Origin: Desulfofustis sp.
GTDB taxonomy: Bacteria; Desulfobacterota; Desulfobulbia; Desulfobulbales; Desulfocapsaceae
Reading direction: 5' to 3'
Assembly: GCA_013042475.1 (NCBI GenBank)
Contig: JABDQA010000165.1
Location: forward strand, 1 to 32,840
DNA: 32,840 nucleotides
Positions 26,948 through 28,018 of this stretch are shown here, piece after piece; the stretch's first letter is position 1; every line of letters begins with the position of its first letter. The notes under the pieces are model-generated. The model worked only from the letters and a program-made list of their open reading frames with translations. It was not told the DNA's origin and made no database searches. The position numbers and the translations under genes were made by a program.

Positions 26948-27169
26948 TCATGTCCGTTTTGATTGGCCCTGCAGGCGCCGGGGAAGTTTTTGATCAAAAT
27001 GATCCTCCAAAAAGTGGTGGATTGACTTGAGACAGTCGCGGCGGCCGAGAAGATGCTGCCGCTTTTTGGGGTCGAGTGCGTGGCGGTCCCGCAGGGTATC
27101 GTCAATTTCATTAATGCGTGCATTCAGTATCTTATAGAGATCGAGAAGGTATGTATAGGCCATATCCAT
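26948..27169 (-). CDS. Small helical protein of unknown function, related to the next one
   Basis: A 73-aa charged protein with no signal or membrane segment, predicted mostly helical. The central part is KKRQHLLGRRDCLKSIHHFL followed by EDHFDQKLPRR. It aligns with the neighbouring 69-aa protein with a single gap, sharing a Y near residue 5, a G at the head of the last helix and the ending (L)-(E/K)-D-H-x-D. It lies 12 bp before panE on the same strand and 29 bp after the 69-aa gene, so the three may be co-transcribed. I do not recognise a family. ATG 27169 is the longest start; M3 is an alternative. Confidence 0.65.
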   Translation of the reverse strand: MDMAYTYLLDLYKILNARINEIDDTLRDRHALDPKKRQHLLGRRDCLKSIHHFLEDHFDQKLPRRLQGQSKRT

Positions 27170-27198
27170 CCATAGGTGATTCTAATGTTTTAGGGAGT

Positions 27199-27408
27199 TC
27201 AGGAGCCAGGCTGATAATAGGTGAAGTCCTTCAGGTCGACATGGTCTTTGAGGTAAGCGCGCAGCCAGGTTAACTCTTCGAGCTGCCCGCTCCAGTAAGA
27301 CTGGTTATGATCATCCCCGGCCTGTTCAGCCTCAGCCCGCTGTGCTTGAGCGTTTTCTATCTCGATGGTAATAAAATCGTGGAACTGGACAGAGTATTCA
27401 TTGGGCAT
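27199..27408 (-). CDS. Small acidic helical protein of unknown function, paralogue of its neighbour
   Basis: A 69-aa soluble protein beginning MPNEYSVQFHDFITIEIENA and ending WLRAYLKDHVDLKDFTYYQPGS. It looks like a two-helix bundle with a central polar turn (AGDDHNQSYW). The C-terminal helix matches that of the adjacent 73-aa protein. GAGGA stands ten bases before ATG 27408, a usable ribosome binding site. Codon use resembles the neighbouring genes. Function unknown. Confidence 0.65.
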   Translation of the reverse strand: MPNEYSVQFHDFITIEIENAQAQRAEAEQAGDDHNQSYWSGQLEELTWLRAYLKDHVDLKDFTYYQPGS

Positions 27409-27545: not shown

Positions 27546-27683
27546 TCAGGTTTTGGGTTTGGGCGGCTTCTTTCTGGGGGCTTTTTTAAACCTCAGACAC
27601 TTTCGCAGGATTGCCTGATAGGTGTCCCAGTCTCTGGTGGCCAGCAGGCCGGTTTTGGCAAATGAAATTTCAGTGTTCTGCAT
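27546..27683 (-). CDS. 45-aa lysine-rich peptide directly behind the cobalamin riboswitch
   Basis: ATG 27683 to TGA 27546 encodes 45 aa: MQNTEISFAKTGLLATRDWD, then a helix-like YQAILRKCLRF, then a basic proline/lysine tail (KKAPRKKPPKPKT). A very strong Shine-Dalgarno AAGGAGG lies six bases upstream of the ATG. It is the first and only ORF between the riboswitch terminator (27722-27756) and a hairpin at 27492-27526, so it is the apparent regulated gene. There is no signal or membrane segment; one cysteine is present. I do not recognise any cobalamin-related family in it. It is too short for common ORF thresholds and would normally be missed. Confidence 0.6.
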   Translation of the reverse strand: MQNTEISFAKTGLLATRDWDTYQAILRKCLRFKKAPRKKPPKPKT

Positions 27684-27721
27684 CAACTGCCTCCTTGGGT
27701 TTCGGGGAGGCCGGGGGCACT

Positions 27722-27756
27722 AAAAAAGGCCCCCGGACCATGATGGTCTGGGGGCC
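27722..27756 (-). terminator. Intrinsic terminator in the riboswitch expression platform
   Basis: On the minus strand GGCCCCC-A-GACC (27756-27745) pairs with GGTC-C-GGGGGCC (27739-27728 region), with one A/C mismatch and a short loop, followed by TTTTTT (27727-27722). It sits between the riboswitch and the Shine-Dalgarno of the 45-aa ORF, as expected for transcriptional control. A further GCCCCCGG (27718-27711) can compete for the second arm. Confidence 0.85.
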
Positions 27757-27816
27757 CTGTCACCTCAGACGGGTTCCACTCAATTCCTGATCCGCGGGAA
27801 TTGAACAGTCTCTTTT

Positions 27817-27982
27817 CCAAGGCAGGTCTTCTGACTTCCGGATCATCCCGCTCATCGCGCCTTCCCGATCATGGATCAGTGGCGGTGCCTGCTTGACACA
27901 AGCGATGGCGGTACCCGGTCACAGCGGCGGGCCCGTTCCCGATTCTCACGGGATTCCCCTTTAAGTCCAATGGACGCCTGGG
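27817..27982 (-). ncRNA. Cobalamin riboswitch (AdoCbl/MeCbl aptamer)
   Basis: The minus strand shows the conserved core in order: GGGGAATCCCGTGAGAATC, GGGAACGGGCCCGCCGCTGT read up to GACCGGG, the B12-box GCCACTG (27883-27877), GGGAAGGC, GATGAGCGGGATGATCCGGA and AGTCAGAAGACCTGCC near the 3' end. Closing P1 arms are CCAGGC (5') and GCCTTGG (3'). Between the aptamer and the terminator is a perfect 8-bp stem TCAATTCC/GGAATTGA (27780-27787 with 27797-27804). Binding of cobalamin would be expected to favour the terminator and switch the downstream 45-aa ORF off. Confidence 0.93.
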
Positions 27983-27989
27983 TAGTTAT

Positions 27990-28018
27990 TGTGTATCTCG
28001 AATAACTGAACCTGTCAA
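27990..28018 (-). promoter_or_regulatory. Promoter of the riboswitch transcript
   Basis: On the minus strand a perfect TTGACA (28018-28013), 17 bp and TACACA (27995-27990) lie just upstream of the aptamer, so the riboswitch has its own promoter and is not a leader of the upstream EamA gene, which ends at 28071. Confidence 0.5.

Follow-up and report, generated by a model that had tools for sequence, protein, structure and literature searches.

Cobalamin riboswitches are usually regarded as regulators of transporters, synthesis genes, or isoenzymes. The ppe2 locus of Mycobacterium tuberculosis contains a cobalamin riboswitch that directly controls a short translated upstream open reading frame (uORF), uPPE2 (Kipkorir 2024, PMC11260477); this uORF overlaps PPE2 by ATGA, its expression platform is translational, and it is a coupling device for PPE2 (PMC11260477). 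In the Mbox of M. tuberculosis, the primary regulated open reading frame (ORF) is Rv1805A, a conserved small protein with a homolog outside the switch-controlled operon (RNA 2026, PMC12810186), and in EutX/Rli55 a cobalamin riboswitch controls a small RNA (sRNA) that sequesters EutV (PMC6317780). As described in Rodionov 2004 (PMC545781), the delta-proteobacterial B12 regulon includes cbiK-cbiL, btuCDF, nrdDG, and cbtX, and the only genome of the lineage studied here that was covered there is that of Desulfotalea psychrophila. We analyzed a 32,840-nucleotide stretch of Desulfofustis sp. DNA (assembly GCA_013042475.1, contig JABDQA010000165.1; the whole stretch is called the window), in which a cobalamin riboswitch on the minus strand is followed by a 45-codon ORF. 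The original prediction, made from the letters of the window, was that the small peptide encoded by this ORF is the riboswitch target, and this is supported by the linkage of the two elements and by coding conservation. Judged from the comparisons below, the peptide belongs to a previously undescribed family of B12-riboswitch-linked microproteins, and the output of this riboswitch is new. No such small protein is mentioned in the passages of the regulon account consulted here (PMC545781), and no description of the peptide was found in the open-access literature, although an earlier account in subscription papers is possible.

A family of small proteins linked to cobalamin riboswitches

The window comes from a draft metagenome-assembled genome (MAG) of 3.5 Mb that is 91% complete, and the relatives of this genome include Desulfofustis and other Desulfocapsaceae and Desulfobulbaceae. 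When the 45-aa sequence alone was used in a six-frame search, matches were found in 23 of 58 relatives, and each of the first 20 matched loci had an RF00174 riboswitch closely upstream on the same strand. Of 258 genomes in the order Desulfobulbales, 101 matched a profile derived from the first members, and 117 matched a 32-column profile of the core. One of the 117 (G056, locus L189, E 0.003) was rejected as a chance match because it has no riboswitch and no start codon and lies inside a 682-aa frame, leaving 116 genuine genomes in 38 genera. In a sample of 395 genomes from across the phylum, all matches were in Desulfobulbales members, apart from one spurious 13-residue match. As far as homologs were searched for, the family is confined to this order, to which Desulfotalea psychrophila belongs.

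The linkage of this peptide to a riboswitch, and the gene contexts described later, were counted over 118 genuine loci. In 117 of the 118, a B12 box with no more than 3 mismatches lies on the same strand 108-465 nt upstream (median 171); the background, measured at random points within these loci (186 of 4000, 4.7%), is itself raised by these riboswitches. At the sole locus lacking a B12 box, L133, the contig begins 71 nt before the ORF. RF00174 was confirmed in 73 of the 75 loci run against Rfam, and the two misses (L133 and L185) are both at contig edges. Because the protein profile searches used no RNA information, this linkage is independent evidence for both the riboswitch and the peptide. 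Whether the ORF and riboswitch stay together in relatives was one of the checks proposed with the original prediction; we regard the existence of the family and its linkage to the riboswitch as near certain.

Coding conservation of the small protein

The coding part of the window locus has the following features.

27546-27683, minus strand: 45-codon small-protein gene (MQNTEISFAKTGLLATRDWDTYQAILRKCLRFKKAPRKKPPKPKT), with homologs in 116 genomes of the order
27591-27683, minus strand: conserved 31-codon core (E5, K10, D18-W19-D20, F/Y22, Q23, R27)
27549-27590, minus strand: variable lysine/proline-rich C-terminal tail, missing in 30-aa members
27690-27696, minus strand: Shine-Dalgarno sequence AAGGAGG, with 6 nt between it and the ATG

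The start codon is ATG in all 78 members examined and apparently GTG in a few distant members that were found later, and AGGAGG is matched at ≥5 of 6 positions upstream of 75 of 78 homologs. In four of the five groups compared, the nonsynonymous-to-synonymous ratio (pN/pS) is 0.24 (window genus), 0.22, 0.11, and 0.16, and positional entropy is higher at third codon positions (1.54) than at the other two (1.19 and 1.13). The first 31 codons are gapless from the start codon in an alignment of 40 members, and in 110 members the core residues E5 (92%), K10 (85%), D18 (87%), W19 (94%), D20 (93%), F/Y22 (95%), Q23 (95%), and R27 (88%) predominate at their positions. By these measures the ORF core is under purifying selection, which answers the proposed check for coding conservation.

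Within the genus, invariant columns make up 54% of the aptamer, 52% of the expression platform, 58% of the ORF core, 18% of the tail, and 9% of the sequence beyond the ORF. Because conservation collapses past the core, the selected unit is the riboswitch, the terminator, and the ORF core, with nothing downstream. The peptide had been described as lysine-rich, which is true of the window protein, where the lysines are mostly in the non-conserved C-terminal tail, but is not a feature of the family. Members are about 30-64 aa long, and 16 of those found without btuB or a fusion are exactly 30 aa.

When AlphaFold2 was run on an 11-row alignment, it placed helices at residues 3-15 and 19-30 with low confidence (mean predicted local distance difference test (pLDDT) 68, predicted template modeling score 0.35); a single-sequence structure prediction was weaker (pLDDT 61), and even the aligned model was of too low confidence for a fold search. 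The core is predicted to consist of two short helices and a turn, with the near-invariant D-W-D-x-F-Q starting helix 2. Searches of Pfam, NCBIfam, and the PDB with the peptide returned no family (best E 0.03, isolated members only).

Leader RNA and promoter at the window locus

The noncoding part of the locus, also on the minus strand, is as follows.

27804-27996, minus strand: cobalamin riboswitch aptamer (RF00174; cmscan 108 bits, model 1-189 of 189)
27821-27839, minus strand: B12 box GGAAGTCAGAAGACCTGCC within the aptamer
27722-27757, minus strand: intrinsic terminator of the expression platform, GGGCCCCCAGACCA-TCA-TGGTCCGGGGGCC, then TTTTTT
27990-28018, minus strand: putative promoter, with -35 TTGACA (28013-28018), a 17-nt spacer, and a weak -10 TACACA (27990-27995)

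With a bit score of 108 (E 2e-26) against an RF00174 gathering score of 31.5, the window riboswitch is a normal member of its family, and the novelty sits in its output. The terminator hairpin (27728-27757, -28.8 kcal/mol including flank) and the six T residues that follow it (27722-27727) are located between the aptamer and the ORF. A strict terminator pattern scanner did not report this hairpin, probably because the stem contains an A-C mismatch. By a loose energy and T-run criterion, an equivalent hairpin lies between the aptamer and the first codon in 75 of 77 homologous loci, and the stem is almost invariant among congeneric loci. The complete aptamer, the terminator, and the 45-codon ORF with its AAGGAGG, all named in the original prediction, were confirmed by the RF00174 score, the hairpin with its T-run, and the 6-nt spacing. 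The promoter that it assigned to the riboswitch fared less well: the TTGACA is in place, but the -10 element is weak. Since a promoter scan found nothing exceeding its threshold and the -35 TTGACA is retained in just 3 of 5 congeneric loci, we consider a promoter upstream of the aptamer plausible only.

Gene contexts of the peptide

Context classes were assigned from automatic ORF calls, and single cases may be wrong. The next gene is convergent in 46 of the 118 loci, and the peptide in these is probably monocistronic; in one genus, it is typically 30 aa long and followed by a convergent feoB. In 26 loci, the peptide is directly followed on the same strand by a TonB-dependent, BtuB-like receptor. 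Stop and start codons overlap (ATGA, TGATG, or TTGA) in 20 of these, and the end of the uORF often contains a purine-rich, Shine-Dalgarno-like stretch. The receptor is usually followed by exbB, tonB, or btuF or btuF-cbiZ. It scores about equally against the NCBIfam models of vitamin-B12 receptors and of heme receptors, below the cut-offs of both, so the name BtuB-like rests on the riboswitch and the neighboring genes. In the remaining 40 loci, either a gene on the same strand follows at a distance that varies, or the contig ends. One protein encoded at L136 (695-2701, minus strand) contains both a BtuF-like periplasmic binding domain and CbiZ (adenosylcobinamide amidohydrolase).

In six loci (L040, L042, L094, L099, L100, and L035), a peptide homolog is fused N-terminally to an exported CbiK. 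The peptide part precedes a hydrophobic signal-like stretch and is presumably a cytoplasmic N-terminal extension. Five of the fusions form one group (47-94% identical), whereas L035, which involves a different CbiK paralog, shares only 24-29% identity with them, which makes two separate origins of the fusion probable. The PF06180 (CbiK) match of the L042 fusion starts at residue 80, and the peptide lies outside it; the 45-aa window protein has no PF06180 match, and a CbiK domain is found only in the fused relatives. In the L040 fusion, the near-invariant W19 is replaced by G.

A cobalamin riboswitch ahead of a known B12 gene in relatives had been named as a sign that the peptide is incidental. 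Such an arrangement is found in about a quarter of the loci (btuB-like or exported cbiK), but these loci retain the peptide, either ahead of the gene or fused to it, so it is not incidental there either. The view that the ORF has no B12 connection proved wrong family-wide, given these contexts.

At L192, the riboswitch is followed in turn by the peptide, a Gate-type permease (PF07670, below cut-off), cbiK, and a transporter; this permease may be the cobalt transporter CbtX predicted by Rodionov 2004 (PMC545781). Two other loci, L134 (1267-3316, minus strand) and L194 (3470-5686, plus strand), contain three tandem cobalamin riboswitches within ∼2 kb, one each before the peptide, the Gate-type permease, and the exported cbiK, so that the peptide has its own switch.

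The window genome contains two further riboswitches, one before a btuF-cbiL locus and one before an exported cbiK, and both of its CbiK proteins lack a peptide extension. A search of this genome for relatives of the BtuB-like receptor gave no match at E 0.001 (in a MAG 91% complete, with no positive control), although the peptide is retained. The window peptide has no adjacent gene and, unlike uPPE2, no stop/start overlap. Between it and panE are two small ORFs on the minus strand (27197-27408, 69 aa; 26950-27169, 73 aa) that have no Pfam match; similar small ORFs occupy the equivalent place in congeneric genomes.

Several other features were observed near these loci. On contig 9 of the window genome (L086, 7267-11133), a riboswitch is followed by an apparently frame-disrupted ATP-binding cassette permease and then by BtuF and CbiL; the disruption could be an assembly frameshift or a real pseudogene. 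NrdJ (B12-dependent ribonucleotide reductase) is encoded on the same strand 0.5-1 kb past the peptide at L031, L038, L041, L093, and L106, in two genera. It was rejected as a specific partner because it is present in 192 of 258 genomes of the order and the peptide in under half. A thiamine pyrophosphate riboswitch at L016 (1099-1210, plus strand) lies ∼160 nt from the start of the cobalamin riboswitch and is divergent from it, on the opposite strand, and pieces of group II introns are located ∼1 kb from the riboswitch-peptide locus at L190 (5513-5751) and L175 (5644-5725).

Proposed function and alternative explanations

The cobalamin riboswitch class usually works as an OFF switch. Based on this behavior and on the terminator in nearly all homologous loci, the window riboswitch is most likely a transcriptional OFF switch. 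When cobalamin is bound, the terminator between the aptamer and the ORF would halt transcription; when cobalamin is scarce, RNA polymerase would read through, and the small protein would be made. We propose that this microprotein acts in trans, at least where it stands alone, and that it assists or regulates cobalt/corrinoid acquisition from the cytoplasmic face of the membrane. In btuB-type lineages, the peptide is also the leading cistron, with apparent coupling to the BtuB-like receptor, and may in addition serve as a uPPE2-like coupling uORF. In two lineages it has become the N-terminal extension of an exported CbiK, and in the family of the window it mostly stands alone.

The aptamer, the terminator, the coding conservation, the linkage, the gene contexts, and the fusions are observed directly, whereas we infer the cobalamin response, the direction of the switch, translation of the peptide, its action in trans, and its role in corrinoid acquisition from sequence data. 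The existence of stand-alone, separately switched, and fused forms suggests that the protein itself is functional. Action in trans is suggested by the 46 convergent loci, by the 16 members of exactly 30 aa, and by the separate riboswitches of L134 and L194, and the proposed role in cobalt/corrinoid acquisition by the btuB-like and cbiK neighbors. We assign a probability of roughly 55% to this reading, namely a genuine, riboswitch-controlled new small protein under an OFF switch, with a role in trans in cobalt/corrinoid acquisition. A more specific proposal, that the family consists of B12-repressed, trans-acting Desulfobulbales microproteins that tune cobalt/corrinoid acquisition, for example by binding cytoplasmic uptake or chelatase machinery, is offered tentatively, at a little under even odds.

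Several results weigh against the proposed function. In the fifth, diverse group (f4/f5), pN/pS is 0.74 with synonymous sites near saturation, a weaker signal of selection. No relative of known function was found in the searches of Pfam, NCBIfam, and the PDB. About half of the Desulfobulbales genomes have no detectable copy, which means that B12 metabolism can do without the peptide. The stand-alone loci share no neighbor that would name a function (NrdJ, HemC, FeoB, EamA, or panE, by lineage), and at the btuB-type loci a purely cis role would fit as well.

That last point belongs to the alternative that best survives these data, a cis-acting leader peptide. Here it would be translation of the uORF that matters, keeping the transcript open or allowing reinitiation at btuB, and the stand-alone copies would be operon leftovers. 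The overlapping stop and start codons of most btuB-type loci, often with an internal Shine-Dalgarno-like stretch, speak for this model, and termination-reinitiation at such an AUGA has been demonstrated for ppe2 (PMC11260477). Against it are residue-level conservation across a gapless core, purifying selection and retention where the neighbor is convergent, the separate riboswitches of the peptide and the next gene at L134 and L194, and the two fusions to CbiK, and we consider it unlikely.

Still less probable is a dual-function or regulatory RNA, in which the read-through transcript would act as an sRNA, as in EutX/Rli55, and the ORF would be secondary. A trans-acting sRNA under a cobalamin riboswitch has precedent (PMC6317780), and many of the loci resemble short monocistronic transcripts, but variation is concentrated at third codon positions with pN well under pS, and conservation does not extend past the ORF.

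The original prediction had also allowed that the true target was lost or is reached through a long transcript. In the window, the peptide gene shares its strand with the two small ORFs and panE, whose order is conserved within the genus, and only a weak hairpin and T-run follow the ORF, so read-through is possible. We favor neither possibility, and rank the long transcript slightly below an sRNA, because panE has no known B12 link and other genera retain the riboswitch and peptide with quite different downstream genes, many with a convergent gene directly after the peptide. An incidental ORF behind an orphan riboswitch, suggested by its short length and lack of a known family, is refuted by conservation in 116 genomes, by linkage at all but one locus, and by purifying selection.

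If the proposed function is correct, this would be, as far as the literature searched shows, the first protein that alone forms a monocistronic cobalamin-riboswitch unit. It belongs to a small protein family, easily overlooked by gene finders, in bacteria that matter to the sulfur cycle. The riboswitch suggests the hypothesis that the protein is made when B12 is short, and the btuB and CbiK contexts provide candidate partners. Cultured hosts exist, with Desulfoprunum benzoelyticum DSM 28570 and Desulfopila sp. IMCC35006 among the hosts, so this new layer of B12/cobalt control would be directly testable. In other genomes, too, "orphan" riboswitches could be used to point to small-protein genes that have been missed.

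Comparison with known systems

Like uPPE2, the peptide is encoded by a short ORF under a cobalamin riboswitch, and in many btuB-type loci it overlaps the next gene by ATGA. Unlike uPPE2, it lies behind an intrinsic terminator and belongs to a conserved family whose members are often the sole gene or fused to CbiK; the two are likened here by arrangement. The Mbox and Rv1805A share with this locus a riboswitch whose main target is a conserved small protein, but the Mbox is a mycobacterial Mg2+ riboswitch with Rho-dependent and translational control. As in EutX/Rli55, the output is short, concerns neither transport nor synthesis, and is possibly trans-acting, but it is coding and conserved as a protein rather than an RNA. 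The exported CbiK cobaltochelatase (PF06180) is joined C-terminally to the peptide in the six fusions, with the peptide forming no part of PF06180. With the regulon of Rodionov 2004 (PMC545781), the peptide loci share the riboswitch family and some of the same neighbors (CbiK, BtuF, and a permease beside cbiK). In none of uPPE2, Rv1805A, and EutX/Rli55 does a conserved small protein stand alone behind a cobalamin riboswitch of the terminator type, and this pairing sets the Desulfobulbales family apart from them.
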